A stretch of DNA of 64,000 bases from Polytrichum commune (lineage: Eukaryota; Streptophyta; Polytrichopsida; Polytrichales; Polytrichaceae). The stretch spans positions 7,628,501 through 7,692,500 of the forward strand of contig OX485808.1 of the NCBI GenBank assembly GCA_950295325.1, in the 5' to 3' direction. Made by a program: the position numbers and the translations under genes. The notes beneath the pieces were generated by a model that saw only the letters and a list, made by a program, of their open reading frames with translations, was not told where the DNA came from and did not search any database. Below are positions 31,721-63,444 of the stretch, in pieces. Each line of letters begins with the position of its first letter. Positions within the stretch are counted from its first letter, which is position 1.

Positions 31721-33218
31721 CATGGGGAGGTCACTCAGTAGGATTTTTGTGTACCACGTGCGGCGGAGGGGTATTTATTTAGGGGTTATTTACCTCCAAG
31801 GCACGAATTAAAAGCTCCCTATAATTATATAATATTCTAAAATGGCCTATTTTTTTGTACCCTACCATTACTTATAATGCCCATGTCATTGAAATTTGTT
31901 GTAGTCTATATTCCTTTTAATTAAAAAAACTGAATTTAAGAATGTATGCAATGCAAAAGTGATGGGAAAATCATGGCAACAAAAAAATATAAAAATTACG
32001 TACCATTGCAAAAACCAAGTACAAAAACTTAAAGTGAAAATACAAAAAGAAGACTTAGGATGGAACACAACGTGATTGAGTGTGTGTTTACAAACACAAC
32101 AAGATTGTGTGTGTGTTCACAAACACAACACCCGCTCCATAAAAATCCTTTATTCAAAATCACTTTACATGATAGTAAAGACCAAAACCATATAGTGTGA
32201 AACACTTTAAGCTTGGTCATGAATCTTATATAGTTCGTTCTGTCACAAACTTGGACAGTTGCTCTGAATCATTCCTATCAAGAGTGTACACCTCATTTGT
32301 AGAATTGTAGCTCATGTTTACCGTAGATATAATGCAATCTACATCAATCCATTTGCTATCCGTGTGATCATACTTAAATTTGTTACGGCCTGGATATTTT
32401 CTATAATATTGCAACATTACTTCGATGTGGGGATTATTAGGATTTCTCCTCCCTGATTCCTCCGTTCGAGCAAGGAGGTCAACCGCTTGCCTAAGTACTC
32501 CAAATTGTTTTCCATTGCGCCGCCGCATAGCTTGCACCCTACCCACCCACCATGAACTGGAATCTACTCCGTTCAATATGTTAGTAGCATTTCCAGCTTT
32601 AACATCAGTCATTGAACGTCCCCTTTTTCATTTGGCAGCGGATTTTACAGTTGACAATAACATTGTTGTGCTCCGTTGGACAAAATGCACCCCACAATCA
32701 GATCCTATAGATAACAAACTTGATCCACATGAAGATCTTGCTTGGAGACAATTATCATGGTTGTTGAAATGAATACTATGTTTAATTCTTGCTAATCTAT
32801 CTTTGGATAGAGAAACATTACCATTGAGTTGCGAGACAAACGTTGATTTGTAAATTGAATGCCCATCAACTTCTACGGTTGGCAAAAATTTTCCGGTTCT
32901 CTGTACTGAGGCTTCCAATTTCATCCATTTTTGGGTGAATGATGAGTAATTTTTTATCCATCCCTCGTGAGGCATGCATACGAAATTGATTCTACTAAAC
33001 ATACATCCTAAGATCCTTATTTTCAGCCCCTATATTATTTTTACTAAAAAGGAATGGCCCATATTTTATACCTATCTATTTTACTTGTAATGGGCTTATG
33101 TACTTTTAATGGACCCTTCATTATTTGGAATTCTTTTATAATTTTTATGTCAAATGATTTTAATCCTCCCTATATTATACCGCACGTCGTTTTTAAAATG
33201 CACTAAGTGACCTCCCCG
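31721..33218. mobile_element. Mutator-like (Pack-MULE-type) element, copy 1
   Basis: The 1498 bp element is flanked by a perfect 10 bp duplication, TGGTTGCTAT (31711-31720 and 33219-33228). The inverted ends are CATGGGGAGGTCACTCAGTA on the left and, in reverse complement, CGGGGAGGTCACTTAGTGCA on the right. Weaker symmetry continues to an ACGTGCGG box about 40 bp in. Duplications of 9-11 bp are the mark of Mutator-like elements (family knowledge). Its outer 300-430 bp on each side match the element at 62078-63436, while the centre differs. No transposase is present. It carries a coding-like minus-strand segment (next entry). It sits inside the Harbinger transposase gene. Confidence 0.83.
32226..33002 (-). 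pseudogene. Coding-like cargo of the Mutator-like element, unidentified
   Basis: A single minus frame runs 258 codons from the ATG at 33000-33002 to the stop at 32226, broken only by one TGA at 32628-32630. The first 25-30 codons lie in the element's own subterminal sequence (MFSRINFVCMPHEGWI); the rest is cargo. The cargo has protein-like features: SLLSIGSDCGVHFVQRS, a basic WWVGRVQAMRRRNGKQFG stretch, then YYRKYPGRNKFKYDHTDSKW and a Val/Ile-rich end. I do not recognise the family. A host-gene fragment captured by the transposon is the natural reading, and the fusion with the element's own ATG is an inference from the overlap. Confidence 0.55.
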
Positions 33219-34312
33219 TGGTTGCTATTGGGTTTGTGGACGGAGAAAGAATTTAGAAAGCGAACGTGAGTGACATATACAACATTTAGGTTTTTGTGAG
33301 AGGTTGGGTCTGTATTTGAAGAAAGAATATACCCGTTTTAGGGTTACCGTGCCGGTGCAAGAGAAGATAGCAATGTCATTGCATCGGTTGGGTAGTGATG
33401 ATGGATTGCAAACCATAGGTGATTTGTATGGAGTACATAAAAACACATTGTCCATAATAGTGAGAGAATTTTGTAGAATCGTGACAAAATATCTTCAACC
33501 AGTTTTCGTGCAAACTCCAAATGAATCGCAATTTAGGGTTTTAGCTTCGAAGTTCGAGCAATTGTACAGAATACCTTACATCATAGGTGCGATAGATGGA
33601 TCACATATTCATGTTTTGGCTCCTATAATCGGCGGAGAAGATTATTATTGCAAGAAGTAATTTCATTTAGCGATTTTGCAGGGAATTGTTGGATCATATT
33701 GCATGTTTTGGAATTATGAGTTTGGATGGGCAGAATATCTTCACGATTGGACAGTATTTCAAATGACAAAAATTGGACGCGCTTGCATTGAGGGTAAATT
33801 CCAGCCATACAAGTTGATAGAAAATGCTGCATATCCGATAAGGCCTTAGATGTATTGTCCATTTAAGGGTGGAAAAACAACGCTATCCGGGAAAGATGAA
33901 AATTGGAATTTCATACAATCTTCGACGAGGATGTGCGTAGAGAGGGCATTCATGATTTTGAAAGGCAGGAGGAGGTTGATAATGAAACGATCTGAGATAC
34001 CTTTAAGGAATATACTTGATATTGTAGTAGCTTGTATAGTATTGCACAAGGAGAAAAAGCTGGAATTGCAGAAGTGCGAAGAAATATTCTAGCTAGGAAA
34101 GATGTGCCAATTGCAGATGAAAAAAATGATGCAGATACAGATTTATTTTTGTTGAGAGAAAATGAGAAGGCTAATGACCTTCTGCGGGAAGCTACAGCGA
34201 TGCACGAAACATTGGCAAAAAATTTGTGGCAATACAAACTACGCAAAAAATCTAGTATTATAGAAATTGATAGTGATAGTGATAGTGAGATTGATTTAAT
34301 GGATTAAAGATA

Positions 34313-35478
34313 GAATTTAGCTATAAGAGTAGCAAAATTCGTGTCCATATTTTTGAGGATAGCAGTAGATTCTTGGAATGATGCAAGAAATGTCTTTGAA
34401 TTTCCTACAACATGTTCTAGAAGAGTTTCAATCTTTTCTTGTGTTTTATTTTTCTTCTCTTGTGCTGGCGGTGCAGAAGTTGTTGCTTGAGACGGTGTAG
34501 GGGTAGAAAGAATAGCATCTTCTGTCCAAAATTTTGTGGCATTAGCAGGAATCTCATTGTAAACACTCGCCCTACTACCATGTCATTGATCCATCTCTTT
34601 AAACCACTTGCATTTTTGTTTTTTATTATTACCTGAAATTTCATTTGCTTTCTTATCAGTTCTATATTCATTTAAGACGGTTTTGTATTTTTTTTTTTCA
34701 TGATAATCAAGATCAATTGAATCCTTTGATTGCAACGACCATTTGAATTTGTAATTTAATCCAGGAGTTGGCACCTACATAAGCAACATAAAACACATTA
34801 AATTTGTGAAATAGAAGCTAAAAGATGTTAAAATTGACGATGTAAGAAAAAAATTAACATAGGAGAAGTATAGTATAAGGACATATGTTATTTATGAAGA
34901 CATTGAAAAAAAATTGACGTAGTGGTAAGGAGAAGCAACGAGAGAATGGTAGAAAGGAGGAGACGTGGGTTCCATTTTCGACATCGGCATATTTTTACTA
35001 AACATAGTAACAAACTCAAAGTCCTCGCGGTAGCGGCCACCGGTATATGGGGGGGAGGGGGGGCATAGGGGCTTACGGCTAAGGCGAAGGCCTTCTACGG
35101 CCAACATCAAAGGTCAACACATTTTACCAATTTTTTTTAAAAAAATTCTACAAAAATTCTACAAAATATTTTTTTAAAATTCAAAAAAACATTACACAAA
35201 ATATTGAAAAAATCCAAAAACAAATTACCTTGCTTGTTTGCTGTTTTTGTGAATTCTTCGTCCATCTCCCCACGAATTACTATCAGATGATGCACTTCGA
35301 AATCCTTCCATTTGATCCTGGTCATTTCTTCTTCTTCTTCCGATTCGCCAATTTCAATCGTATTCTTCTTATCGCCTTTCTTCATTTTCTTCGTTGTTTC
35401 TTTTGTGACACGCCCCCTCTTTCTTTTTGCTAGTTGGCTCTTCGTTGCTCCTTCGATTTCTTCTTTTTCTTCAAACAT
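34313..35478 (-). pseudogene. Myb/SANT-like accessory protein of the Harbinger element
   Basis: Exon 1 is 35478 down to about 35236. It starts MFEEKEEIEGATKSQLAKRK, has a Lys-rich nuclear-targeting stretch and an acidic ESEEEEE run, then TRIKWKDFEVHHLIVIRGEM, the start of the trihelix-like Myb/SANT domain found in these partner proteins. A GTAATT donor follows CAAG at about 35236. The last exon begins after a TATGTAG acceptor near 34784 (PTPGLNYKFKWSLQSKDS), includes WFKEMDQ, a TGA at about 34582-34587, then HGSRASVYNEIPANATKFW, and ends at the TAA near 34313. The remainder of the domain is expected between these two exons, where I see only fragments (35040-34900), so that part may be lost. 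In the family this protein brings the transposase to the nucleus and the element's ends. Confidence 0.72.
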
Positions 35479-36262
35479 TTATGCTCTAACATATGAATGA
35501 TGACTATCTAATTGTCCTCCTTGGCTGTAATTTGTCGTTGACAAAAGTGGAGGAAGATGAAATGCACTAAAAATATTGGGGAGCAAATTCGGACCTTACA
35601 ACATTTGAGAAATCAAATTTTGATTCTCTATAAAATTTGGAATTGACACTCGTTGCATCCACTCTTAATTTTGTGACCACTCTCCTTGTGACTCTCTACA
35701 TGGTTCCTCATCAACAAAATATCCTTTCATTTCTGCAAAAAAAATCTCACTCTATCACTCTATCAGAACTATGCTGCAAGAAAGAGAAATGACAAATCCT
35801 TCCTAAAACGGCCTTTTCACGATGCCCTGAAATTAAACCGTTAGTATGTTTTAACATTAACATGCAGCGGCTTCTACGAGGCAAATAAAAAAATATTATT
35901 TTTGGCATTTTTGGCATTTTTTTGCCATGGGCCCCTGGCTGTTTTTTCCATACCACCTCTTTTGCCCCCTCCCAACGGAAAAGCTGTTGGACCATGTTAG
36001 TGGATAGAACAGGGCTTAAATATTTTTTGGGGAGACCTCAATATCTATGGGCTCTCTGACATTTTTTGCTTGGTGTAAACCGAACTGCTCCCGGGACGAG
36101 TTCAACATCCAATCACAAGCTTCGGATGGCCGTGGGACAAGTTCATGGTCCATGATGTAAACCGCCCCTTAGTGTCCGCTCTTCAATACAAGCTTGGCTA
36201 TGTACTACTCGACTATAGATGTCCAATTAAGAAAAGTGACCACATGAGGTGCATATACCTTA

Positions 36263-36920
36263 ACCCTTAAAGGACATATGCTTTCCCGATACCACACCCA
36301 AAACGTCTTTTAAAATTCATTTTAAGCATGATTAACCAATTAATTTACATAGGCTCTATTCTAAAGAAGTATAGATCTTGCTAAGGTGCTCGATTTAGCA
36401 TTCTAAAAACCCCATTTGGTGCAATGGAGTAGAAGTTTTGAACAAGATTCTCCCAAAATAATACCAAGCCCGTGGGGCTTGCATTGTCGTTTAAGGGTTA
36501 AGTATCATCATTGTGGGAAAGCATGATTTCTTTTTATATATATATATATATATATAACTATAACTCATTGGATCAGAAATTCAATAAGAATTTTTGCTAG
36601 AAGCTCCTTCCTGGATGGCCACCATCATCATGGATGTCATTTGACTGACTTTCAAGATCATAATATTCATTAGGTCTCTAACAAACTTCGACTCGGTATG
36701 TGTTAGAACAAACAATAACATAAATAGAAGAGATATTGTTCTCAGATGGTCATGAGTAGAGTCCCTCGATGCATGTTCATTATCCGCCTTGAAGCAAGAT
36801 ATCAAAATCTCAATAAATAAAATAATTCTCTCACTTCTTTAAAACTCCAAGTTGTTTGAGCTTATGGGGATGGGTGCTCCAGGAGACAGTCTTGGATAGC
36901 ACGAACGTTCTTACCCAATA
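36263..36920. other. AT-rich spacer with (AT)n microsatellite
   Basis: No gene is visible. A TA repeat of about 12 units lies at 36533-36557. Confidence 0.5.
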
Positions 36921-37169
36921 CTGTTCTCCATCTTTAGTATGACACATTTGGGAAACACAAAAAAGGTTGTATTATCGAGGTGTCGTCTTCTCGTTAATAT
37001 GACAATGGCGTAAAGTTGTCGGATTATTGAGGGAATACGAAAACATAAGTAATATGAGCTTCTGAATATATACATCGAGTTTAAGCAATATGGATGGTAT
37101 GAAATAATAGCTTCAAACAAATATAAATATTCTCAAGAACTCTTGAAATAGGAGTCCAAAGATCTCGGG

Positions 37170-38303
37170 CAAGGCTGTTTTTTCACAAAGTTTTTACCCG
37201 TCCACGTCCCAAAACCTCGAATTGAAAGGCAAAAAAAATTGCAACCCGTCCCAAAACCGGTAATTTCAAAACCAACCCGTCCATGGAAAGGTTGAAGAAA
37301 AAACAACCCGTCCCAAAACCGGTAATTTCTAAACCAACCCGTCCATGAAAAGGTTAAAAGAAAAAACAAATCGATAAAGATAACCCGAAAGATGTCGGGA
37401 TGTGATTGGTGCACTTGCCACTTGGAAACAATATTATCTTACTATCTTCGTTCATTTCTGTTTTTTCTATTATAATTACCAATTTGCCAGCCTGCCACTG
37501 CCCCATTTTGTCTGTTTGTCCACAGATTAGTTCAGAGAAACTGTACTAGACTCAGTCACTCAAACTCAGTCACTCAAACTCAACCGGTTCATTTGAAACT
37601 AACTCGAATTCAAGAAGTTGGAGAGAGCCGCTGGAACAATCTCCTCCTACAATCTTGAACTTCAACAGGTGTTTTCTCAAACTCAACTGGTTCATTTGAA
37701 ACTAACTCGAATTCAAGAAGTTGAAGAGTGCCGCTAGAACAATCTTCTCCTGCAATCTTGAACTTCAACAGGTGTTTTCTCAAACTCAACCGGTTCATTT
37801 GACGACTGCAATCAAGTTATCTCTTACCGGTCTCTCAGTTGCTTTAGCTTTCAGTTGCATATGTTCGATTCATTAGCATCCTAAATCTTGAGAGTCTTAT
37901 TCCTCTCTTTTGTTGTGGGTTGAGTGCAGATTCCTCTTAATTCTTATTCAATTACTAAGTTTACCTTCAATTGTAATCTTTGACATTATGTTAAAAAGGT
38001 TCTAAATTTTGTGGTTGATGAATTAATGTATGCAGGTGAATCAAGCACTTCAAGATTGATAGTTTGATTGGGTATTAGTGGTTTGATTGCATTATGCTTA
38101 TATTCACATGTCATATATGACATAACGTAATTGATATTTGTACCATTTTTTTAATTTAAAAAAATGTTATTTTTAGAACCCGTCCAAAGTGAATTTGACA
38201 CGTCCCAAAACCGGTTCATTTTCTAAGAACCCGTCCACTGGAAATGTTTTTTTTTATGAACATGTCCCTAGACATGTTAGGGACCTTGTGAAAAAACACC
38301 CCT
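37170..38303. mobile_element. Mutator-like element with 9 bp duplication and repeat-rich ends
   Basis: The 1134 bp element is flanked by GATCTCGGG at 37161-37169 and 38304-38312. The ends are inverted: GGCTGTTTTTTCACAAAG and, in reverse complement, GGGGTGTTTTTTCACAAGG. A related locus at about 60140 carries the same flanking sequence with a single GATCTCTAG, i.e. the empty site. Subterminal direct repeats include AACCCGTCCCAAAACCGG at 37243 and 37305 (62 bp apart) and again near the right end. There is no open frame of note. The 9 bp duplication argues for Mutator-like; hAT (8 bp) is less likely. Confidence 0.82.
37575..37802. repeat. Tandem repeat, 103 bp period, made of R2 sequence
   Basis: CAAGAAGTTG occurs at 37611 and 37714, with the whole 103 bp between nearly identical; a partial third unit follows. 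The repeated boxes CTCAAACTCAACCGGTTCAT and AATCTTGAACTTCAAC belong to R2 in reverse orientation, so an R2 fragment has been tandemly duplicated within the Mutator-like element. Confidence 0.75.
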
Positions 38304-38825
38304 GATCTCGGGTGTTGCCTACCCAAGTTAGCAATTATCATCTTACCTAAATTTCCTACTGACTTTTGAAAACTAATAACTTTATTAACACCAAAATATA
38401 AAGATGTTTTTAAATAAAAGGAACTAGACAACAATGATGCATGACGTTTAGCATCAAGATACTGATGATATTATATCACCCGTTTACAAGGCAACATACT
38501 AGGCAAGAGGCCACTCTAACCCTAACCATGTCCATTCTACACTAGTAACCTAATTATCATTAAGTTCCCAATGATAAGTGAAGTTCCCAAGTAGTTCCCA
38601 AGTGAAAATGGATGTATTTTAGATGTACATAACAGAGATGAAAAGAATTTTAGCATTAACTACCTCTTTAATATGACAAAACAAAGATTCTGAATGTCGC
38701 ATTATCGAGTGTTGTAGTCGTATAAAAGAGGGAGTTTTGAACTAAAATTTTTGGTCTTGCAAAAATGTGTCGAAATCCTTAGGGTGTCGTATAAATGAGT
38801 GTCGTATTAACGAGGTTAGACTGTA

Positions 38826-41624
38826 CTAACAAAGTGCTCAGAATATTAAAGATCTTATTCATATTAAATTCTCCTGGTGCTCGCAGTCAATCCATTGGCA
38901 CCACCTTTTAGCTTTTAAGAGCATGCTCACACATTGTAAACCAATCACCGACACACAAAGGGGTGCTAAATTTGGTAACATTATTTCAAAGGGGAGTAGT
39001 CTGCTACATGTTTCATGTTCACTCTATGAGCACCATGATTAATTCTTAACTTTCCACACTTAATTTCCCTCAATTCTATCTAGAAAATGTGATCTCAACT
39101 TCAACAATTGTAGTCGAAGACCTAAAGCTTTTTTGACAAATCCAACCTTATAGACGTTTGCAAGTTAGAGGTGACTACTCACGGTCCAAATTTTAAATGT
39201 TGAAGTTCTATTATTTAGGTTATAATAGGAATGTCAATAATGGTCTTGAGGGGCGACAATTTAGAAATTAGGTTAGGGTTGGTTTTGTTATTGAACATCC
39301 ACTCATATCATCTCCAAATGACAAAATGTTACCTTCATTCAAAACAATGGGTAATATACCTACTCAAATCAGCTCACAAATCTTGAAACCATTATTTTGT
39401 GAATATTTGGGAAGCTTTGTAATTTGAGGCAGCAGTCCCACAACTGCACACCTTCCACATGGATTTACACCCACCAACATATGTCCAACTAGAAATTCCA
39501 ATAGTAGATGTTTAGGATATGTTGCGTTTGAGTGTCATGCAAATTTTCAGATCAATTGGGAATCATTTGCACATAGGGATCAACAAAAAAAACATGTTTA
39601 CGATATTTTGCCCCTAAACCGTGGAGGTGACAAATGTCAAGTTTTGGTTCGTGGACTGGTTTCACTAGAAACCAGTTGAGAGAACACTCCCATATTTGAA
39701 TTAATCCAAAAATAGAGAATTTTGTTGAATCAAAATTATCCGCATGGTAGAACATAGTAGACTTGAACATGAACTAGAGGAGTAGTTGAAATAGTCAAGA
39801 AACCATTTGAACTAGTGTCAAAGGGGTCAGAGCGAACTGCTCATGACCAGATTATGGTCACACATGACATTAGGGGTTAAAACTAACATTTTACAATTTA
39901 CAAAAGTCTTTGCAAAGAAGTTGTTGAAGTTTTTTTTTTGTCAAAGATGATGAATTATTGATAGTTGATTTCCTTATACAAAGAAGTTGATATTTACCTC
40001 TCTAAAAGTAGCATATTTGAGGGGTGGAAGGCTTTAGAGGAGAGCGAGCACTTCTACATTGATGATTATGAGAACGCATGGGAGCCCATTTTGTTAATGT
40101 TCACCTTTGAATTGGCAGTGCGGGTTTAAAGGTGTCCATGTTGATAACCCTTACTTTTCTCAAGGTACATTCCAATAAACTGGGAACTTTCACAACACCC
40201 TTGATGTGAAGGGCATTTGAGCCCACTACCACCACCAATTTTTATTTTTATTTTTATTTTTATGGGATTGGTTTGTATAAGAAAACTAATTCAATAATGA
40301 AGATGTGGAATGAAATACTTCTCCATTTCAACAAAATTTGAGAAGATCCAATGGCCGCAAAGTTGAGATTCTAAAGTTGAGGTAGTTGGTCAAGATTTTG
40401 TCATTTCTAACTCTAGATGGTAGGATGCACATTGGGCAATCTTGGAAAACAAATCAACAAAAAATTTGGTCACATAATTAGAACATGTGAATGTTAGATT
40501 TTGAATTTTCAAACTTGGCATTCATACACCTATTCTAGAAGGGGTCAATGGGATAATGGATGTCCCTCACATTGAAATCAAATGTCATCTTTAACCATGT
40601 TCAGGAGTGGGTTCATATTGAAAGCACTACATCCTCTAAGGTAGATGGTGCTAAAACCAACACCCTAAAATCTTGCACATAAGTACATAAACTGATCACG
40701 AAAATGTTTCACAACCTCAACAACATGCATGTGTGTTGATTTTGGGTCATCTACTTGAACCCTCATAACTTTTGCATATGATAATCAAAGAAGTCATACT
40801 TTGATGTGTTGAGACCCCTTGTCAATTACAATCTAAGAACAATATCTATGCACAGTGCTTAAAGTGATAGTTTTGATACCGATTTGGTCCCATGCCGGTT
40901 TTGGATTATGTCCATACAAAACTTTGAACCCTTGTAACTTTTGCACATGCAAATCGTATAAAACATACGTTGGTACGTTGGAATCTCTTATCTTTTGCCA
41001 ACAAAAACACAGTTAAGAGCTTTTGCAATCTAATAAAAAGCATGTACACTTGGTACTTAAAGTGACACATTTAGCACCATCTACCTTACCAAGACTTTTG
41101 TGAGAAGATAAAGCGCACCGGCCTCCAGGGGCAATGACAAAGGGTTCGCTAATTCCCAAGCCCATGCTGAACTGCGATTGGTCACGAGAGCGGTGGCATA
41201 GTTTTGAGAAGCCGAGTGTGATGAAATGTCCACTCTCCTCACGTGCCATGTGGAGGCGTCACCGTGATCTCCCAGTGTATGGGGAAGGAATCCCCCTGTT
41301 GCCTGGGCCTATGGGTCACCTGAACGAAGGAGCAGGGAAAAGGGCCTCAGGCCAACATAATATTCATTGTTGATTCTGATGCACCAGGCAACTGAAAGTT
41401 GTCTTACCAAGAAGGTGCAAACCAGAACGTAATCGGGTTCTGTGCTGCAAGTGCGTTCAAACTGAAAACTACGAACACCCTCGTTGCTGATGCACGGATT
41501 TCGTGTGGCGTTGGGTCCACTCAACGTTCTTGGTGATTTCCGAGCCGAGATAGTTGTTTGTTGTACGAGGTGGGGACCAACGTTTCGTGAAGTTTTTGCA
41601 AGGATCTGGTTGGGAAGTGAGGTT
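38826..41624. other. Non-coding AT-rich region
   Basis: I see no convincing gene over these 2.8 kb. A (TTTTTA)n tract lies at about 40232-40261. CTTTTGCAYATGMWAATC boxes recur at about 40770 and 40945 within a longer imperfect direct repeat (40660-41050) that also contains GCTTAAAGTGA/ACTTAAAGTGACAC. The stretch 41100-41640 is somewhat richer in GC, with overlapping open frames of up to 136 codons and no known motif. Confidence 0.45.
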
Positions 41625-41975
41625 ATGTGGTCACTCGTCCTCATCGGACACATATAATATTTGAGTGGTATGATATAATGGCAAGGCTTGTAGTTAAGAC
41701 TGGACACTAAAAATGACACATGTTATGATGAAATTGGACGATGCCCTCAAAATACAGACACCAACCCAAGTTCAATGGTCAGTTCAATTGGGAAGCTTAC
41801 CTGATCAGTTAAGGAGAAAGAAAACCTACACTTTGACCTACTATGACTCATGCATCTCTACTCTGAATCTGAAACTTGAAATGACAGTGTGTGCGATTCG
41901 CGATTGCTAACAGGATGAGACAAGTCCCGATTGGATCCAGCAGCCAAAGTGTATGTGGAGTTGGAATTGTGGACA
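41625..41975 (+). repeat. R1 repeat (plus), near full length
   Basis: Ordered boxes: GTGGTCACTCGTCCTCATCG, CAAGGCTTGTAGTTAAGACT, TTATGATGAAATTGGACGAT, AAGGAGAAAGAAAACC, GACAAGTCCCGATTGGATCC and GTGGAGTTGGAATTGTGG. Confidence 0.65.
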
Positions 41976-43689: not shown

Positions 43690-45228
43690 TCATCCGTGGA
43701 AACTCCACAGGCAATCGTCGAGTTCCCAAACGTCAGGTTGACTGTTGGCAGGATTGATAGCACCGTCAATCGAAGCGGCCGACAACCCGGGCAGGTACAT
43801 GTCTTCCAATCCATGCAACAACGTGTGCACCTCGGACTCTTCCTGCTGGCACGCGAGCAAATGCCCCGCGCTCTCGACCTCCTCCATCTTCGCCTTCCCG
43901 AGGATGCTGGCTGAAGAAGTACCTGCTCGGTTTGCGTCGCTGCCGGATTCTGTAAATTCGTGTTTGGCATCTTCGTCGTCGGAGTCAGAGTCGCGGCAGA
44001 ATTTGTGGAAAATCTCGAGGTCGGGGCATTCGACGGTGAGGCTAACTTCCTCAGGGCCGGGCTCATTCTTTGCTTCAATTTCTCGTGCTGCCATTTGACA
44101 GTCCTTGCAATCTTCGATGGCCATGGTCCGACATTCGTTGCAATCTTCGAAGTTGTAAAGTACGGCGGCATTGGAGTCGATGCGTCCAGCTGATCCGAGC
44201 TCCCCTTCCTCCTCCATCTTTACTGTTGCATCCGAGCTTGATTCCGGCAGAAGTCGGCTGTTGTTCGTCGAGCTCGGGTTAACCTCACGATGACGAGGTG
44301 CGCATTCTCCTGCAATGGGACTGTCGCCGTCGAGTTCTCCAAGTTCTTCCTTGCAATCTTCGATGTTGTAAACGTTGGAAGAATCGAGCTCCTCCTCCTC
44401 CTCCTCCTCCTCCATCTTCACAGTTCCATCCAAGCTCGATTGCGGCAGAACCAGCTGCGGCGGTCCGTAGTTCTTCGTCGAGCTTGGGTTAGCCCCAGCA
44501 TCAGGAGGCACACATTCTTCTGCACTGAGTGACTGCAAGGATGACAGTTCACCAAGTCGTTTTTCTTCCTCGAATTCGGTCGAAGTCGACGGGTCGAATT
44601 CGGTCGAAGTCGACGGGTCGAGTTCGGGACTGGAGGGCGCATTCTGATGATGTTGATCAAGTTTTTGACGATCGGAGCTTTCGAGCTGTGCGCGGAGCGA
44701 GACGGCGATGGCGCCCGCATCCACGAGAGACGACGGTGTGGGACTCGCGGCCGCGGCTGCAGCTGCCGCGGCCGCTTGAATTTCGCGAGGCGACGGGCAG
44801 AGCGGGAGCTGCGATGGTGGCGAGTCTGGGAAATTCAATGTCGCTTTGGGTCCCCTCAGACACACCACCGCAGCATCGTAGGCCCTCGCGGCCATCTCTG
44901 GTGTGGGGAAAGAGCCCAGCCAGATGCGAGATCGTTTGTTAGGCTCGCGAATCTCTGAAACCCATTTGCCCCACGCGCGCATTCGCACGCCCCTGTACTT
45001 CGTTGGCAACATCGTCGTCACGACGGGAGCTTTCTTCTTCTTCTGCTGCTTGCTCCTCGATGTCGTCATGGGCAACGCCGTCGTCGTCGTCGTCGTCGAC
45101 GACGGCGAGGTGGAGGTTGACGTTGAGTTTTCCGACATGAGCAGCTGCTTCTTCTTGACGGGCTTGAGAAACTCGAAGCCGCGTCGAGACGCCGGCGAGG
45201 CGGCTTCTCGAGGCTTCTTGTCAACCAT
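43690..45228 (-). CDS. DREB-type AP2/ERF transcription factor
   Basis: A single uninterrupted frame of 512 codons runs from the ATG at 45226-45228 to TGA at 43690-43692. The AP2 domain spans residues 78-134: [38 protein letters not shown] and LNFP. Val at domain position 14 and Glu at 19 (GKWVSEIRE) mark the DREB branch rather than ERF proper. The following [16 protein letters not shown] (146-161) is typical of DREB A-4/A-5 groups. Before the domain are poly-Thr (45-50) and the basic KQQKKKKAP (60-68), a likely nuclear signal. The long acidic C terminus (eight consecutive Glu at 273-280, SDSDDED at 414-420, ending DDCLWSFHG) is likely activating, and I see no DLNxxP repression motif. Residues about 226-294 and 295-365 are an imperfect internal duplication. 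The protein is long for its group. It is expected to bind DRE/GCC-like promoter elements in the nucleus. Base composition is clearly richer in GC than the repeats around it. Confidence 0.93.
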
Positions 45229-49800: not shown

Positions 49801-49804
49801 TAAC

Positions 49805-51849: not shown

Positions 51850-51908
51850 AATATCCTTGGCAGGAATTGAACCTAGCAATGCCTTCACCGCTTGGAGGCC
51901 AAGGGTCC
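51850..51908 (-). other. tRNA-like promoter boxes, possible SINE remnant
   Basis: On the minus strand, TGGCCTCCAAGCGGTG resembles a polymerase III A box and GGTTCAATTCC, about 20 bp further on, is one base from a B box (GGTTCGANTCC). A full tRNA cloverleaf cannot be drawn and the A-B spacing is short, so this is at best a tRNA-derived remnant. Confidence 0.2.
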
Positions 51909-52501
51909 CCCAATTCTTCATAGAAGCAATTGGATTTGGTCATGGAAAGGTTGCATAAATCAAAAAGTGTAAGGTTTAGGGTACTTCCTCAAGTGCATCA
52001 TTAGATGCCCCGGACAAATAGCGCTCTGGATGCTTCCGGCTGAAACCCAGTAACTCACAAGAAGAATCGGCTACATTTCCGGGACATTTTCTGGTCCATC
52101 GGCTAATTGCCGGAGGATTGAAATTACAGTCAGATTGCCATCCGATGGTTGGAAATTTGGACCGGCCATGAGGGGAAATCCATCGGCTGATAATGAACTA
52201 GCCGTCGGTTTTCCCCAAACATAGCTTGGAAACACAAAGGATTTCGAACGATTAATGCTCCAAAATCTCCCTGGACACTGCAACCGATCCCCATCTCATC
52301 AGAAGACTCCAAAAACCTCCTTTATGGCCAACTTATCCTCTTTTTGGTTTGCCAGCGGCTCTTTTTGGTGTCGAGCCCGCATGCCTACCTGGCCACATCT
52401 CCACCCTCCATCAGGGCTCGTCCACCATCAACCGTCCACGGCTGATGTCATCACAAGCGCCTGGTCAACAGTGGCAACAAACAACATTCTCTCCCTCCCT
52501 A

Positions 52502-52718
52502 CGATCGGGGAGAACCGGCAGTTAGTTTCAAATGCACCGGTTGAAGTTGTTCAAGACTGTCAGGGAAATTACCGGTCCGTTTTAGAGGAATTTGTAGGAG
52601 AATATTCCCCAATTTAATAAAAGGAAGACCGGAGGATGTCGTCAACATGGAACCGGTTGGACTTGCAAACACTTGGATCTCAACTGATGAGTATGTCCAA
52701 AACTCTCCCCGATCGTTG
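52502..52718 (+). mobile_element. R2 element with clear terminal inverted repeats
   Basis: It starts ACGATCGGGGAGAACCGGCA and ends, in reverse complement, ACGATCGGGGAGAGTTTTGG, giving a perfect 13 bp inverted end and a length of 217 bp. It is the best copy for defining R2 as a MITE. No target duplication is evident. Confidence 0.65.
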
Positions 52719-53194
52719 TTCTTTCCATGCTTTTTGATTCTTTGGGTCTTAGGGTTTAGGGTTTATAACACCACATTCAGTGTTCAAGATTGAAATCCTC
52801 ATGTGAGTTTCATTTGGAAGGGCTCTCAAATTGCAGCCCTGCAGTGGAAGGGTTGGTTCAAATTGAAGACGTTAATTCAAGAATATAGAAATGAAATACA
52901 AAACTCATATTTGACTTGTGCATGAATTATATGGTACATGGTTCTAGTACAATGTGAAGAATTAAGAATCAAGCATCTAACTCCACTTCTTGTAGTGACA
53001 ATGCCCTTCGCTTGTTAGTTCTCGTAGCGGGCAGATTATATTGAGGACTTCAATTCATTTTCAATTTGGGGTTACGTTTTGAAGGGCTATTTTGAGAGAG
53101 GTAAGTTTTGAAGGGCCAAAATGTGTTTTAAGGGCATTGAAGATTTTGATCTTGAACATTGACTACGTCCCATGAGGGTTTTGGACATGATCGG

Positions 53195-53395
53195 CCGAAC
53201 TCCTTAATGTTTCCAAGTCCAACAGGTTACATGTTGACAACTTTTAGTGTTTCTTCATTAAATTTGAGGTATATTCTTTAAGTTCCTCTAAAATTATCGG
53301 TAATGTTCCTGAAGTCTTGAGCTTTGAATTGGTTGTTTCTCAAACTCAACCGGTCCATTCGTAACTAGTGGTCAGTTCTCCCTGTTCATTGTTAT
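53195..53395 (-). repeat. R2 repeat (minus)
   Basis: It reads in reverse orientation with AGTCCAACAGGTTACATGTT, TTCCTCTAAAATTATCGGTA, TTTCTCAAACTCAACCGGTC and GTCAGTTCTCCCTGTTCATT. Confidence 0.6.
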
Positions 53396-56258
53396 AACAT
53401 TACTAAACTCATTCCTTGCGGAGGTGAAAATGTAGTGAATTATATTATGTATAGCCTTGTAACGATTATTTTAGATTATTAAAATTTGGAAATAGCATCA
53501 AAGACCCCAAATTAGTCTAGTGGAGTCCAATTGAAATGAATTGACCCTCAACTTTGTAGGGTACTTGTTTTGCTAGATCCCCTTCATCCACAATGGATCA
53601 CATGCCCATGGCATCCCTCATGAAAAGGAGCTCAATTGGGTTAAGAAACCAGGTAATTACCACATTCAATCTTATAATGTTTTAGTGTTTTGATCACTAT
53701 TTAAAAATTTTCTTAATGGTTGAAGATGATCCACAATCAAATCCATTGTGTGAATATTGTAATTTTAGTGTTACACATATGCATGTGCGGGGAGGAATTT
53801 GAATCCACATCCACCCCTTCCAAAGTTCATAATGACCATACTAACCACCTATTGTTGAGGGGGACCATGGAATTCACCTTAAAAAACCACAAAAAATCAA
53901 GGTGGAAAAGAGTTTTTTTTTGTTTCCCACGATGTTCCCCTCTGTTGCAAGGTGCACCATAATAATCTCCCATCTTATTAAGTGATTGAGAACCATTAGG
54001 AACAAATGAGAACACAAAACACTAATACGGTGTAACACTATGGCAATGAAACATTGTCATTGTTATATTTACCAAATGATAACATTTTACCTAGGGTAAC
54101 ACCTTGTAGTATCCCCAAGGTGGCATGGGTATATTCTCACCTCTATTTCTAGATGGTTATGTCAATCATCAATCATGCAATAACCATCATGGGAAATTAT
54201 GATAGGGTTCACTGCATCCAAAATGCAATTAACAAAATGAGAGTTAAACTCACAGTCTTTGCAAACCGAAGTTGATGATTGACAACCTGCAATTTAATGA
54301 CAAGGTAGCATTATTACATACAAACATACCCCTCACTCATTCAAATAAACACCATGAAGTAGTATAGAACCCATAGCTTACATTTTCAGTTAATTTGACA
54401 TCAAAATTAGCTTTAGAGACCTCCAATTAATAGAGTAATCATACACATGTTAAATGAACCAACCACATACCTATGGGAGCGAGGGGAGGGGGGGTACACA
54501 TGAGTTGGTGAGAGGTACACTCATATGCAACAATTCTCTCTCACCATAATGTCTTGCTATTGATTTCACATTGTCAATGATCATTGTTGCCATAACATCA
54601 TGGAATGTGGGGAATATTTTGCAAAATACTGTCACTGTTATGGATTTGAATAATGTTATGGCTCAAGTGTTGTGGCAACATCATCAAGAAAGGTAAATTA
54701 TTTTCTTTTCTTTTCTATTCTAACAACCAATATGATGTTTGTTGAACTCCCATCATTATTAAAAATAAGTTGATGTAATAGTAAACTTTTCTTCACATAT
54801 CACATGTTCTTGCAAATTGAAGTGCGTGATAATTGATGCGTTTGGGTCAAATCAGATAGGTTTTTGCCCAAGGTAGATGGGGCTTAAGTGGCTTGTTTTC
54901 TTAATCGGACCCCATATTGATTAGTATGTGGGTTTAGTGAGGATCACAGAGCAAACATCATAAAGACACATTTAAAAGAGACTAGATTTCGTCTTCAAAT
55001 ATTAATAACTACTTTACACTCGATACTAAACACAATTGGGAGAATGTATGTATTTATTAGAGAAATCAACAAACATACACCTCCGATAACTGCAACTAAC
55101 TCGAGGAAGTCCGATTTCAATATGGTTTTGCGAATATTTCATCGTAGATTTTCTAATGCAACACGAAATTTGTTGTGTAAATCTAATCAGTAGAAGTTGG
55201 AGAACATGTAAAACGAATCAAATAACACCCACATACCTTAAGATTCAATTTCTTGAGACCTAGGTGATGTAGGCATCTGAGTTGGAGCATCGTGCACTAA
55301 AGCTCGTGTGGTCAATGTGGTGATCTTATCACCACATTCCGCTGCACAGATACATGTGCTTTTACTTAAGAAGAGTGACCACATAAGGTCCACATTCCCC
55401 AAATCTCACCTCACAAAGAAGAGAATGGTCAATGTCATATCCATACTACACATCCAAGCTGCATTATGAGCTTATAAGTCTTGCATTGTTGAGATTACTT
55501 ACAAATCTATCATAGTGGTAGATTTTTAGAATATTCATTGACGTAAGACAATTTTCACTGACAAAAGAGGGGTTGCTTAGAACTCGTATGCTTGTAGTGT
55601 TGATAACAACTATCTGCAATATTTGCTCAAAACTCAATCATGCAAGTCCTACACCCTAAAACGACATTGCCACATATATACTGATTTGAAACTAGCTTCT
55701 AAAAAAGAAGGAAAATTGAAATTTGAAATCCAGAAAAGAAAAATTGATGTTGGGGGAGCTTACCTTCTCTTTCCTTGGGAATAATACTACATGGTTAAGC
55801 TTTGAATTGAAATAAAAACTATAAAGTGCAAGATGCAAAATCTAGTTCACTTGAAGTGTGAACATGAAGTGGATGAAAGATTTACTAGGTCAAAAATGAG
55901 AAGAAGTTTCACAAGCTTGACCTTTCGAAAAGAATGAACCTTTTCATTGGCAAGGAACCTCGTTCATTCAATCCCACTTCACATTTGAGTTTTAAACTCA
56001 AGAGCTTGAAGTTTTCTACCATGCTTACAATGGTGGCCTTGATGGCCCCATATGGAACAACTACGACGTCTTGGTCGAAAACCCTAATATGTCTCCGTAA
56101 GGTCACTTGGGAATGTCAAGAGTTTGACCTCTTGTGTTGTGGATCCCAGCCAATGATTTTTCTTGAGCATACTTTGGTTTCATGATACCTTCTTTGTTTA
56201 GTATTACTCCCTCTTGATAGGTATCTCACTTTGAGCTGGCAACTTAACACTTGCTTTA
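53396..56258. other. No gene recognised
   Basis: There are short R1 traces near 54950-55050 and at 55360-55395 (AAGAAGAGTGACCACATAAG). Overlapping open frames on both strands at 55900-56190 show no known motif. The stretch GGCATGGGTATATTCTC...AATCATGCAATAACC (54120-54185) is unremarkable. Confidence 0.4.
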
Positions 56259-56870
56259 AGGGCCACTTCACACAATGGCCGAAGGTTGAGAGGCCCTCGG
56301 TTTCCATCAATCAGATTGCAAGAAACCAAGAATTTGGCCTCTCGACCCTTCACACTAGAGTCCAAAGGCCATCGCTCTTCAAAATGCCTACATGGCAGTA
56401 CTTTTTTACCAAGGCAACGGACTCTCGAAGAAAGTTTGGGTCGGACAGGAATGGAAACCCAAACTATGGTCCAAAGGTCGTCAAATTTTCTCATTAAAAT
56501 TTTTAAATTTTTAAATTTAAAACTAAAAACTGGCAAGATCTTGGCCATTGGATTAGAGGGGTTGTTTTGGACAAGAAATAAAATGGGATGCTCACCAGAC
56601 AAATGATATGGGTTTGGACTTTGGGCTCGGTCTTTGGAGGCTTCACACTATGACCGTCCAAATCAAGAGGCCATGGGAGTTCACGGCCAAAGGTTTGGAC
56701 TTTGGGCTTGGCCTTTGGAGGCTTCACATTATGCCCAATTGTAGGAATCGAAAGCTCCAATTCCTATAATTTATTGACAATTTTCTGCCAATTTCTTTGG
56801 ACTCTCACCAAAGTTTGGCCATTCAATCCCACGGCCTCTCGACTTGGACGGCCATAGTGTGAAGCGGCCG
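56259..56870. mobile_element. H1-family element, longer and complex
   Basis: The left end, GGGCCACTTCACACAATGGC then GAGAGGCC, is matched in reverse complement at the right by CGGCCGCTTCACACTATGGC then GAGAGGCC. Further CTTCACACTATG/CTTCACATTATG boxes lie at about 56640, 56720 and 56890, so several ends may be nested. The left flank is TTA. It is non-coding. Confidence 0.5.
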
Positions 56871-57467
56871 TAGTGAAGTCGGTCAAGCTTCACACTATGG
56901 CCAAGTGTGAGGTCGGTCGAGCTTTCAATAATTTGAGCTTTGGATGAAATCTCGTCTTCTCAAGGTTCTAACTCCCAAAACTGGCAAGTTCAAGATCTCA
57001 ACTAGAGCTCTAACTTGCTGTAAATGGGGCCTAATGGATGCACAATGAATCTATGAATCACACACCAATACCTTCTTGGGGCGCAACCATTTGAACAGTA
57101 AGGGACACTTTCTCTAAGTAGAAACTAGAGCTATGGTGATCTTATAATTATGCTGCCTAAACTTGGATATTGTATCAGAGATTCCAGGTGCAGTGTAATT
57201 AGATTTCAGCCGTCAGATCTCATCGAATTGGACTGCACAGATTAGTCCACATCTGCTTTACTGTGTCGAAGCCCAATCCTCTTGATTTAGACTGCGGTTG
57301 GCAGTTTTATTTTATTTCTTATTTTTTCCCTGAGTAAAATGACACATTGTGAATTGAAAACCGTCCCCTATCATTGTACCAAAACACCGACTGAATCTGC
57401 AGCTTTCCGACAAGAAATTTTGTTTCATAACACCTAACAAGGGGGACTACACTGGTTATTCCAATGA

Positions 57468-57960
57468 GGGCCATTTCACACACGAGCCAAAGAGCCGTGA
57501 CCATGAAATTGTGAGAGACCAAAAGAAAGTGTCCAAAGGCCGTCCCAGCACACCTCCAAAATCATGTAGTGTGGTCACGGATCCTCAAGTGTAGTGCGAA
57601 GCCGTATGTGACCAGGCCCTCAACCAATTGCTATTTCAATGAATTTTTATTCATACGGGTCCTCACACATGATAAAATAGAATAAATCAACGGTTGTGAG
57701 CATTTGGAGTGCCATGGTCTCCTAGTTTTGTGTTAGGCCTACCTCCAAGAGGTGGTTTTTGAAAATAATCCAAGTGGCCATGAAACATGATCCATTTGAT
57801 GTCATGTAGGAATTTATGTGGACTTTACATCCATCTTGCATTCACACACTCTCATTGGTCCCATGAGAAGCGAATTTGGACTAGCTCTGCCTTTTTCCAC
57901 CAGTGAGAGTGCTTGAAATGTAATGGTCATGGGCTCTCAGTCTCTTGTGTGAAGTGGCCA
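57468..57960. mobile_element. H1-family element
   Basis: The ends are GGGCCATTTCACACACGAGC and, in reverse complement, GGCCACTTCACACAAGAGAC, each followed by a CCGTGACCAT/CCATGACCAT box. The interior shares CTACCTCCAAGAGGTGG with 16659-16999. Its flanks are too diverged to show a duplication. Confidence 0.55.
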
Positions 57961-58543
57961 TGTGTGCGTGTTACTATTTGGAGTTGTGTAGATCAATAAT
58001 GTCTTACTTAGGAGTTCAATTTTTATTTACTAAAGTTCAATAGGTTGTTCGGACATTATAGAACATAAATGACTTTGCTTGGTGAAATATTACATTCGCA
58101 TTAAATAATTATATTGTTGTATAATTTTGAGTAGTAGCACACACAAATTGGGATAATCAATGTAGTAAAAATATGTTCCAATATGTTTGTTGTTAATTTG
58201 TCCAACTTGTGTACACTAGACTCACTTGGGGTTTCTAATCCCAATTTAGAGGCTAATCTTGCTATAAATTAGCAATCCTCGGGCTCTACATTTGTAATCA
58301 ATGTTTGCATTCTCCCTTCCCCCAATTCACCATTAGCTCATCGTACATTGGAGCCTATTTTGAAAGTTGGGTGAAATTTTTGGGACCTCTTCTTTTCATC
58401 TTTGAAACTTTGGAAAAATAAAAATAAAAATAAGATCTAAAATAGGGTATGTGCATGGGACCCATGCAAGGCTCGTTTGGCCCACCCATCCTAGTAGGGC
58501 AAGCTAGAAAGCCGATTTTTAATAACCCATCACCACTCTTTAT

Positions 58544-59149
58544 CTATGGTAATTTAAGCATTAAGAAAACTTGGGATGACTTTGTGTTGATTCTCACAAA
58601 GTCAAGGCTTTGAACTAAACCCAGTGGTTTCATCTCATTTACTTTACAAATAACTCTAACACTTACATAATTCCACCTTGGAATGTTAAATTCGGTGTTT
58701 CCAATACTACTTGCAATGGTCCACTTTCCACTCATGCATTGGTAAGGTAATTGTGTAGCCTCCCTTTCCTTGACATGCACCCATTTGGCTAGTCCTCCAA
58801 GCTTTTCCATCACCCGCCCGCGGAATGGGCGGTTGGTTGCTTTGAACTTACTTGGAAACTTGGGAGTGGTCAACCAACGGATACCAAACTCCAAAGTCCA
58901 CAAGTCATGAATGTGAAGTTAGATAATAAAAGAATACATCACTCCTAGGTTACACAATATGGTCTCCCTTCCCACCACGGACAAGGCACACATGCTTGTC
59001 AAATTGACACGACCAATCCACGAAGGGTCTAGATTCGACATGTCAATTTTTTCAAAAGAGTTGTTGCCTTGACCACATTCAACTTGTGGGCCAGGGTCTT
59101 TCATGAGTTGAGCCCACCTTGCTATTATCCAAGGAGAAAACGTAGTCAA
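58544..59149 (-). pseudogene. Coding-like fragment, 202 codons with one stop, unidentified
   Basis: One minus frame runs from 59149 to a stop at 58544, broken only by a TAA at 58919. Parts look like real protein sequence: FEKIDMSNLDPSWIGRVNLT, SVVGRETILCNLG, then WTLEFGIRWLTTPKFPSKFK and GKWTIASSIGNTEFNIPRWN. I do not recognise the family. Start and end are arbitrary, since the frame may be one exon or a captured gene piece. The frame being open for so long in AT-rich sequence is the main evidence. Confidence 0.35.
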
Positions 59150-59349
59150 TTATTGTATGGCATGTACGTTGTTTTTAAGGCCGATTTGACCTCGGAAATG
59201 GCATCAAAATTTGATGATTCAGTTCTAACATGACTATTTTTTGGGATGAGCTCACCGCATATCTATGAAAATCATATATTCACTAAACTCCCTTTACACC
59301 TCGGTAATAATGATGGGGTCCCAACTCAAAGAGAAGGGTATCAACAGTA

Positions 59350-59610
59350 AATATTGTATCTACTGCCATATAATATAGATGTGTCAATATGGTAACTTTT
59401 CTAACGACACTTCTTATGAAATAAGTTTGCAAATAATCCCATCCCAACTTACTTTTAGTTCATCTACTTTCTGGCATATTTTGCATCGTATCATTCGGTA
59501 ATGAAACATTGTCATGGAATTTAGTGCCACAAATTCTATTTGTCTTGTGCAAGAGTATTGAGCAAGACAAATAGAATTTGTGGCACTAAATTCAATAATT
59601 TAGTGTAGTC
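59350..59610 (-). mobile_element. Diverged F2 MITE, rearranged
   Basis: F2 boxes in reverse orientation (GGTAACTTTTCTAACGACAC, TAATGAAACATTGTCATGGA) run into the perfect hairpin at 59517-59593 and end AATAATTTAGTGTAGTCCGG. Its middle part is missing compared with 14941-15323. Confidence 0.5.
59517..59593. repeat. Perfect 31 bp inverted repeat with 15 nt loop
   Basis: The arms 59517-59547 and 59563-59593 are exact reverse complements. Each contains TGCCACAAATTCTATTTGTC or its complement. The loop is 59548-59562. The arm sequence derives from the F2 box GACAAATAG, so the hairpin arose within the MITE. Confidence 0.9.
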
Positions 59611-59662
59611 CGGGGCCCAACTGGTGAGGGACCAAGTTTATTTAGTACTGGCTAGTGTTCTA

Positions 59663-60391
59663 CTGTCTAACCTCGTTAACACGACACTTGTTTATATGAC
59701 ACCTTCGATATTACGACACATTTTTGCGCGACCAAACTTCTTAGTTCAAAACTCCCTTTTATATACAACTATGACACTCAATAATGCAACATTTAGAATC
59801 TCCGTTTTGTCATAGTAAAGAGGTAGTTAATGTTAAAATTCTTTTCATCTATGTTATGTACATCTAAAATACATCCATTTTCACTTGGGAACTACTTGGA
59901 AACTTCATTTACCATTGGAAACTTAATGAGAATTAGGGTTACTAGTGTAGAATGGACATGGTTAGGGTTAGAGTGGCCTCCTACCTAGCATGTTGCTAAA
60001 CGTCATGCATCATTGTTGTTTAGTTTCTTATTAGAGACCCTCTTTACATTTTGATGTTAATGAAATTATTAGTTTTCAAAATTTGGTAGGGAATTTAGAT
60101 AATATGACAGTTGCTTACTTGGGTGGGCAACACTAGAGATCTTTGGACTCTTATTTCAAGAGTTCTTGAAAATATTTGTATTTGTTTGGAGTTATAAGTT
60201 ATTATTTCATACCATCTATATTGCTTAAACTTTTTGTATATATATTTTAAGCTCATGTTGCTTATGTTTTCATATTCCCTCGATAATATGACAATTTTAT
60301 GCCATTTGTCATATTAATGAGAAGACGACACCTCGATAATACGACTTCTTTTGCGTTTCTTAAACATGTCATACTAAAGAGGGAGAACAAG
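59663..60391 (+). mobile_element. Pogo-like non-autonomous element, uninterrupted copy
   Basis: It is flanked by TA at 59661-59662 and 60392-60393. It starts CTGTCTAACCTCGTTAACAC and ends, in reverse complement, CTTGTTCTCCCTCTTTAGTA. It is the inverted relative of 36921-38823 and, at about 60140, keeps the site (GATCTCTAG once) where that copy received its insertion. The length is 729 bp, with no transposase. Confidence 0.8.
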
Positions 60392-60393
60392 TA

Positions 60394-61840
60394 TGTAGTA
60401 ATTGAAAAAAAGAAGTTGCAAGGAATGGATGCATGCGGGGCCCATTCCGTCTGTAATCCGGTTCCGGTCATCCGAGGTTTTATGCCGTAGTAGCCAATGG
60501 GAAGAGAGGTGGGCCAAAAGAGCCTTCATTCATTAAGTTATTTAAGGATGGGCCAATCCGAAGGCTTGGCATTATAATCCTTATTTAAAAACTCAACTTC
60601 CGGGGCCCATGTGGCGCAAGTTGGTAGTAGTCGGTGGCGTGGCCTTGATATTCGAGAATTGTTAATGTTGGGTGGTTTCACATGCCAAATTTGAATGTCA
60701 AACGACCATGTTCCTAATTGGCTCCATTCGGTTCGGTGCACAATGATCAACGTTAAGTTTTTAGATCCATGTGGAAATATAAGGTCGTGTGTCTATACCT
60801 AGTAGAATAAAAAGTAGAAGCACCTATCGTGGACACTTCAAGCACTATGGTCCCTTACCGCACTCATACCAAATATACAATCACTTCTTCAAGAATTTTA
60901 ACTAAAAAGAAATCTATATTGAGCACAACAACATTGGGATGCCATGAATTAGAACATATATACTTTTACATAAAATTTCATTTGACCGTTCCTAAGTCAC
61001 GTGGTCCCCTCACCTCCCAAGTGGACAATGTTGATCATTGACATTTTGTCTCCTTCGGTGGAAGAGATGTGTTTCTATTCCTTAGAATAATGAAACCATT
61101 GTTCATGTTGAAGTACTGTAGTTGCCCATTTTGAGAGAAATAGTTGGATATATGAGTATTAAAATATTCCATGAATTGGCACGAGTTCATGTGATTGCAC
61201 ACATTGTTAATATAAGCACGTGCAATCTTATAAAATGTTGATGTTATATCATCAGCACAATCAATCAAGCCTTGTTTACGTACACAATCAAGGGTTGTGA
61301 GACAAAATGTTATAAAGGATCGTGATCCTTGATTTGGAGCTATGATAAAGAGATATCCGCATCACTTGGTAAACACCTTGGTCATGAGGCTTAATGAGAA
61401 GAAGACTTAGACCGAATTAGAAGGGGGTGTTTTTACATGTCTAAAATGGAGAAAAAATAATGAACTAAAAAGACCCAACTGAAATATTCATTCATCCTAT
61501 GAAGTTACTAACTGATCCATCACATAAAAAAATATGAAAACTTGATGTCAAATTTTCCGGTTTTGTAAAATCTAGCCATGTTTTGTCAAATGCACATTCT
61601 CAATTTGTTTTTATTTATTTATTTATTAAATGAGCTTGAATCACAATGCTCATATGCAACTATGTCCTACCTACTTATGTGTTGACAAAATTCATATCCA
61701 CTTTCAGTATAGTTTTCTGGCATCTTGTGGTTGTCCAATGCAGTTTTGGGGGTAAGGGCACCAAATGCCAACTTGTTGGTGGTGTAGTCAACCTTGCACA
61801 AATACATGAATACATAATACAAATGTTAGCATGAAAACCA
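60394..61840. other. No gene recognised
   Basis: I see only AT-rich sequence and a (TTTA)n tract at about 61608-61627. Short open frames lack motifs. Confidence 0.4.
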
Positions 61841-62077
61841 TTGGCCCCTCTTCCCCACTGTCATTGATGATATTTTTGCAAAGTCAAGGCAAGTGCATTG
61901 TGGGTTATATGCAATGAACATGAAGCAAGTCCTCTCCTCCTTGGAGACTATGATTGTAATACAATTGAATACAAGGTAAGGGGTGGTAGTCACTCCCACC
62001 ACATAATACTCATCCATTTTGTAATGTGCTCTTTCTATGCTCCAGCAATGTTGCTGCCATATTATGATGAACTGCCT
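61841..62077 (+). other. Coding-like sequence upstream of the second Mutator-like element
   Basis: A plus frame reading ICNEHEASPLLLGDYDCN ... MLLPYYDELP runs up to the insertion point. After the element, the frame resumes in the same codon phase with LPWKTW, a TGA, and AFEFARTQNLIEGWEVG. This suggests the element landed in an old exon. I do not recognise the protein. Confidence 0.25.
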
Positions 62078-63436
62078 CGGGTAGGTCACACTATAGGATT
62101 TTTGTGCACCATGTGCGGCGGAGGGTTATTTGTTTAAGGGCTATTTACCTCCAAAGCATGAACTAAATGCTCCCTATAATTACTTAATTCTCTAAAATGG
62201 TTTTTTTTTTTGCACCCTACCAGTACTTATATTGCCCATGTCATTGTAACTTTTTGTAGTTTATTTTTCTTTTTTATTAAAAGTGTATGCAATGCAAAAG
62301 TGGTGGGTGTTCATGCAAATTTGCAAGTTTTACAAAAGTGAGTGTGTGTTCATATACACAACACCTACTCCATAAAAATTTGTCCCAAACACGCACAAAA
62401 ACCACAACCATTGTAGCTATGTAAAAGTCATGTGGTTCCCTACAAGTCCGTGCAGGTGGGTTTAGGGTATGCAAAACCTATGTAACCCTATCCCAAAACA
62501 AGCAATTTTCAACAAAGAAAAACATACAAATGTCAAGATCTAAGAGTAGGGGTTACATTGTCAACCAAACCATCACAATGACGGACAAAGTATTTTTGCG
62601 GCCAACCTGACTCGAGGTGTAGACGGATTGCATAGAGGTCCATTATGTTGAGGTGTGCAAAAGAGCTCATGCGAAGGTGGTCGGACATCGAGTTATTCAA
62701 AACCCACGACTTATGCAGTAGCTCCAATGTGGGCGTTGAAGTTGTCGACGATTGCCAACCCTCGAAATGCACGCCAACGTGGAGGAAACGCAACAAAATC
62801 AATCACAAGTGGAACAATCAATCACAAGCTGCGCCCATGAACTCTAAACTCTAAACCGCCTCCAAAACAACCGTAAGACCTTCAACCAAGAAAAGCGAGA
62901 CTCTATATGGAACTTCATGGATGCCCATGATCATAAAGCAACTACAAGGGAGACTCTACAAAGGAGATCCTAAACCAAATACAACAAAACATACTTGCTA
63001 GACTTTGTTACCATAAGCTTCAACAAGGAGGAGCTTCAACAAAAAGTTGCCCAAAACATAATTGAAGAAACAAAACCCTAGCTCTTTTTATTACATATAG
63101 TAGTGCATGAAGACGACCAGTAATGGGAGCTGCAATTTTCATTCATTTTTGGGCAAATGATGAGCCATTTTTCATCTATCCCTCATGAGGCATGCATAAA
63201 AAATTGATCCCACTAAAAATAAATCGTAGGATCCTTATTTCCGGCCCTTATGTTATTTTAACAAAAGAAGAATGGCCCACATTTTACACCTATTTACCTT
63301 GTAATGGGATTGTCTATTTTTAATGAACCCTTCATTATTTGGAATTTTTTTATAAATTTTATGTCAAACAAATTTGATCCTCCGTATATTATGCCACACG
63401 TCATTTTTGATATGCACTAAGTGAACTACCCGGGCA
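62078..63436. mobile_element. Mutator-like (Pack-MULE-type) element, copy 2
   Basis: It is flanked by AACTGCCT (62070-62077 and 63437-63444), with one more position nearly matching. The inverted ends are CGGGTAGGTCACACTATAGG and, in reverse complement, CCCGGGTAGTTCACTTAGTG. The left 300 bp and the right 300 bp match the element at 31721-33218 (GATTTTTGTGCACCATGTGC, TTATTTACCTCCAAAGCATG, CATGAGGCATGCAT, CTTCATTATTTGGAATTTTT), while the centre (about 62400-63110) is unrelated to that of copy 1. No transposase is present. Confidence 0.75.
62533..62802 (-). pseudogene. Coding-like cargo of Mutator-like copy 2, unidentified
   Basis: The open minus frame of 89 codons lies wholly in the part not shared with copy 1. 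It reads FLHVGVHFEGWQS ... SSFAHLNIMDLYAIRLHLES, then CDGLVDNVTPTLRS and a stop. Base composition is richer in GC than the element's ends. I cannot name the source gene. Upstream on the same strand (to about 63000) there are further short open pieces that could be other exons. Confidence 0.35.
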
Positions 63437-63444
63437 AACTGCCT

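Follow-up and report, generated by a model that had tools for sequence, protein, structure and literature searches.

Two transposon copies that have the same ends and different interiors raise the question whether each has taken up its own fragment of a host gene, or whether each interior is common to a whole family of elements. The two copies considered here lie in one window (the whole stretch of 64,000 nucleotides that was analysed, C6:7628501-7692500 of the host genome, G000), and two copies per window cannot separate a private capture from a family-wide centre, which a genome search can. Each copy was used as a query against the host genome, which comprises 407.8 Mb in 64 contigs, seven of them accounting for about 406 Mb.

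The resemblance of the two copies, as described in the initial annotation, was confirmed: the left outer regions match over 204 nt (84%, E 1.5e-52) and the right ones over 304 nt (83%, E 1e-73), and the centres gave no match to each other. Both ends of copy 1 have GGGGAGGTCACT exactly, and either end of copy 2 has it with 2 mismatches; a scan for it returned 7 near-matches against a chance mean of 3.0, a number reached in 4 of 100 shuffles. Since this is only mildly above chance, the weight rests on the homology and on the duplications. The true edges run out to CAC...GTG (CAT...GTG in copy 1), so that the bounds first proposed, 31721-33218 and 62078-63436, become 31721-33220 and 62076-63434. 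The duplications, first given as 8-10 bp, are of 8 bp: the exact edge of copy 1 gives the target-site duplication GTTGCTAT, and the 10 bp seen earlier were due to a chance extension of it. The duplication of copy 2 is decayed, TGAACTGC/CAAACTGC, with 6/8 positions identical; if its ends are placed asymmetrically, an exact 8-bp AACTGCCT is available. The features of the two copies, in window positions, are the following.

31713..31720, no strand: left 8-bp target-site duplication of copy 1, GTTGCTAT
31721..31735, plus strand: CATGGGGAGGTCACT, the left-hand terminal inverted repeat of copy 1; most other copies read CACGGGG
31724..32031, plus strand: left outer region, found in both families (consensus positions 4-311; the two consensuses are 91% alike here); further, shorter pieces in common extend to about 32147
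32148..32910, minus strand: centre of family 1 (cargo 1), unmatched in family 2, consensus positions 428-1190
32229..33029, minus strand: 267-codon frame of family 1, with its ATG (33002) inside the right end that the families share; interrupted by one TGA in copy 1
32911..33218, plus strand: right outer region common to both families, 91% between consensuses
33206..33220, minus strand: AGTGACCTCCCCGTG, the right-hand terminal inverted repeat of copy 1
33221..33228, no strand: right target-site duplication of copy 1, GTTGCTAT
33592..34047, plus strand: DDE_Tnp_4 domain, PIF/Harbinger type (PF13359, E 2.1e-13, stops read as X)
62068..62075, no strand: decayed left target-site duplication of copy 2, 6/8 identical with the right one
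62076..63434, plus strand: copy 2, an internally deleted family 2 member of 1359 bp (family consensus 2048 bp)
62079..62307, plus strand: left outer region of copy 2, most of which is shared with family 1
62536..62800, minus strand: family 2 protein-like remnant in copy 2, consensus peptide residues 110-201, in two frames
63133..63432, plus strand: right outer region of copy 2, common to family 1
63435..63442, no strand: decayed right target-site duplication of copy 2

The DDE_Tnp_4 domain starts about 370 bp downstream of copy 1, which is likely an insertion into the adjoining putative PIF/Harbinger-type element; when the flanks of copy 1 were joined with one duplication, no frame of more than 55 codons ran across the junction.

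For the query with copy 1, the best 40 of 1696 first-look candidates were scored, and for copy 2 the best 40 of 1414, namely copy 2 itself and 39 others. Being the top matches to a whole copy, the 40 loci per query are a biased sample: a query with a whole element tends to bring up copies that have the query's centre, and would miss older copies as well as elements in which these ends flank another centre. Such a miss is illustrated by copy 2, which is absent from the 40 loci scored for copy 1.

The copy 1 query returned 44 matches, 40 of which (one per scored locus) cover the centre, the other 4 being end pieces. An 8-bp direct duplication was present at 37 of the 40 fetched loci, exact in 36 and with one mismatch in 1; the three loci without it (L036, L039 and L040) are truncated or interrupted, and were left out of the family 1 alignment. 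The 37 aligned copies are full-length and lie 0.7-2.9% from a 1500-bp consensus, against which copy 1 has no gaps. Their pairwise difference averages 2.6%, and 272 of the 453 minor variants are private, a pattern of divergence that resembles a burst from few sources. The 15-bp termini, CACGGGGAGGTCACT...AGTGACCTCCCCGTG, are exact at both ends in 28 of the 37 copies, and the other 9, copy 1 included, carry one or two substitutions in them. The duplications have a weak preference, with T at position 3 in 17/37 and A at position 7 in 18/37. One full-length copy (L005, C6:7598098-7599596) lies about 61 kb from copy 1, in the opposite orientation, with the 267-codon frame intact. At L036 (C5:23995981-23998900), a family 1 copy without its first 52 bases and a divergent relative have the same orientation, with 2 bp between the copy and the relative's right end; closely spaced related elements are the substrate proposed for Pack-TYPE capture in PMC13317346.

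Copy 2 belongs to a second, older family. The 39 other scored places are 78-85% alike to the right half of copy 2, and in every case the match extends for 160 bp or more into the centre. Twenty of them were fetched as whole elements and 19 had both ends (L069, which is without a right end, was dropped from the end analysis). The members lie 8.7-12.3% from the 2048-bp consensus and have, over a common centre, various internal deletions and an internal duplication; because the subtypes differ in their deletions, this consensus is mixed in places. Their termini vary, but most read CTCGGGTAGG or CTTGGGTAGG...CTACCCGGG, and the duplications have 0-2 mismatches in 14 of the 19 elements (6 with none) and at least 4 in the remaining 5. 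In one 2281-bp element (L057), element positions 883-1370 are a 488-bp stretch that matched none of the other family 2 elements with which it was compared. It was considered as a private centre and rejected: it has 16-bp inverted ends, starting with CAGTAGCCTCCCGCCT and ending in the reverse complement, and lies between TA dinucleotides, from which it is read as a nested insertion, probably of another transposon.

When the two family consensuses were compared, they were 91% identical over 309 columns on the left and 308 on the right, with two short left pieces besides, and their centres gave no match at E 1. The same ends with different interiors, as looked for in Pack-MULEs and Pack-TYPE elements, are thus found between two families. 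Since each centre recurs in dozens of loci, neither is a private capture, and families 1 and 2 are amplified sister families of non-autonomous transposons, with common ends and different centres. The initial annotation had expected captured interiors not to be shared by all other copies of the family: both centres do recur, which goes partly against that expectation, in a sample that favours same-centre copies and does not represent all elements.

As for the content of the centres, the coding appearance on the minus strand that had been ascribed to both held for family 1 only. The family 1 consensus has, on that strand, an open frame of 267 codons, a length reached in 0 of 2000 dinucleotide shuffles, whereas the frames of two family 2 subtype consensuses have 129 codons, which is not above chance (382/2000 and 217/2000 shuffles reach it). 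The ATG supplied by the element itself, proposed to be in frame with the cargo of copy 1, was found at 33002 in the shared right end, where the minus strand encodes the first 30 codons, and it holds in the family 1 consensus. The version of the frame in copy 1 is interrupted by the internal TGA, and the frame is intact in 8 of the 37 copies. Compared with Pfam and PDB, the centres had only insignificant matches (E 0.1, 0.18, 0.34) or none, and no transposase domain was detectable in either by Pfam-type domain searches. A single-sequence structure prediction of cargo 1 reached a mean pLDDT of only 30, and six short peptide patterns from it had no match in viral contigs. Among the sequences of this analysis, the family 2 consensus peptide has one relative, 33% identical over 70 aa (E 1.5e-9), at L018:170-379; this segment, in sequence flanking a family 1 copy, belongs to neither family, contains one stop, and may be a piece of a further gene or of another repeat family.

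On balance, and at about even odds, we favour a Pack-TYPE-like capture by a transposon with 8-bp duplications, followed by amplification of each chimera. The two sister families would be non-autonomous cut-and-paste elements with a 15-bp terminal inverted repeat and about 310 bp of shared outer sequence per side; one transposase, supplied from elsewhere, presumably moves both in trans. Foreign coding-like DNA, originating in other genes and not in the element, would at one time have taken the place of an element's centre. The route might be, for instance, the aberrant excision of two neighbouring elements, as has been proposed for Pack-TYPE capture in PMC13317346. In family 1 the replacement would have given rise to the chimeric frame, with its first 30 codons of element sequence, and each chimera would then have been amplified as a unit, the cargo being carried along and decaying.

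The strongest competing explanation, which we regard as less probable and still a serious contender, involves no capture: the two centres could be different retained gene parts of one autonomous element, now lost or not found, of which both families are deletion derivatives. The recurrence of both centres in dozens of loci, the internal deletions and duplication in which family 2 is rich, the start of the family 1 frame in the element's own end, and the lack of an outside parent for the centres among Pfam and PDB relatives would all agree with this. The absence of a match between the centres speaks against it, but not strongly, as parts of one long element would also differ; the undetectable transposase domain in both centres and the weak similarity of cargo 2 to a segment that belongs to neither family likewise argue against it without much force.

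It is improbable that these are true Pack-MULEs, that is, Mutator-superfamily elements each with its own captured host gene fragment, as the two copies of the window, with their same ends and different centres, had first been read. Mutator elements have target-site duplications of 9-11 bp. The 8 bp present at 37 of the 40 family 1 loci disfavour that label, and two private captures are contradicted for both centres, as centre 1 recurs in 40 loci and part of centre 2 in 39 other places. The likeness to Pack-MULEs therefore lies in the common ends and in the centres that differ between families; the elements depart from them in the 8-bp duplication, as against 9-11 bp, and in centres that are not private to single copies.

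To evaluate whether the 267-codon frame has been maintained, its 258 distinct changes in the 37 copies were classified: 61 are synonymous, 178 nonsynonymous and 19 stops, against a neutral expectation, from the spectrum outside the frame, of 24.3% synonymous changes and 15.1 stops. The frame ratio was 1.04 (p 0.88), and 0.99 for singletons; for family 2 it was 1.05, a value that counts for little as the consensus mixes subtypes with different deletions. In the sampled copies the family 1 cargo is unmaintained since amplification. Hence, of the fusion transcript once thought conceivable, the in-frame junction stands in the family 1 consensus, and a useful fusion protein from the sampled copies is unlikely, given the neutral change of the frame; a copy outside the sample might still be a selected master. 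That the family 1 centre encodes a protein kept for the benefit of the element or the host is the least probable explanation, and very improbable, because the long open frame of the consensus, still open in 8/37 copies, has accumulated synonymous, nonsynonymous and stop changes in neutral proportions, which contradicts a selected cargo protein.

Three further features of the window were observed. A tandem array at 5784-7088 is made of four copies of a unit of about 315-325 bp. An open frame on the minus strand at 43690-45228 (512 aa) has an AP2 domain (Pfam E 5.8e-14), and its product is probably an AP2/ERF transcription factor; this domain and a match to a transposase of plant type indicate that the DNA comes from a plant. 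Inverted-repeat pairs at 38285-38825 (277 nt, 88%) and 59661-60160 (133 nt, 77%) probably mark another dispersed repeat family.

If the centres were captured, the two families would record a gene capture, then the amplification of the chimera, then a measurable neutral decay of the cargo; if not, they would be an ordinary pair of non-autonomous transposon families. A broader proposal, which we put forward as a speculation and consider rather unlikely, is that a lineage of unassigned superfamily, with 8-bp duplications and CAC...GTG ends, repeatedly swaps in foreign coding DNA, fuses it to its own ATG and amplifies the product. If true, this would be Pack-TYPE behaviour beyond the superfamilies and species described so far.

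With regard to known systems, a duplication of 8 bp argues against Mutator; it is consistent with hAT, Zisupton and P elements. YARNG-type termini are characteristic of hAT elements; here, the third base is not a purine, as the majority of family 1 copies begin with CACGG, and many family 2 elements with CTCGG or CTTGG. YARNG-type termini are also described for P elements in PMC2820524. Duplications of 8 nt, reported for hAT in PMC8903248, were found in both families. Within the KDZ group (Kyakuja-Dileera-Zisupton), PMC12730594 gives 8-bp duplications for Zisupton and CA...TG termini for Kyakuja, and our elements are alike in both respects; they are unlike two Kyakuja families, which have 7-bp duplications and are without inverted repeats (PMC12730594). 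A search of the genome for the KDZ transposase (PF18758) gave no match, and none in its own controls either. The main text of PMC8903248 has no mention of moss, bryophyte or Physcomitrium, and no report of Pack-type elements from outside the flowering plants, mosses included, was found by title, which is no proof of absence. The elements differ from the Pack-TYPE elements of rice and maize in that they have no assigned parent gene and their ends are unmatched to a named hAT family. They are similar to them, in the features given in PMC8903248, in being non-autonomous, with inverted ends and coding-like DNA between shared ends, in the 8-nt duplication of the hAT-type members, and in the occurrence of close same-orientation pairs, of which the one at L036 is an example here.
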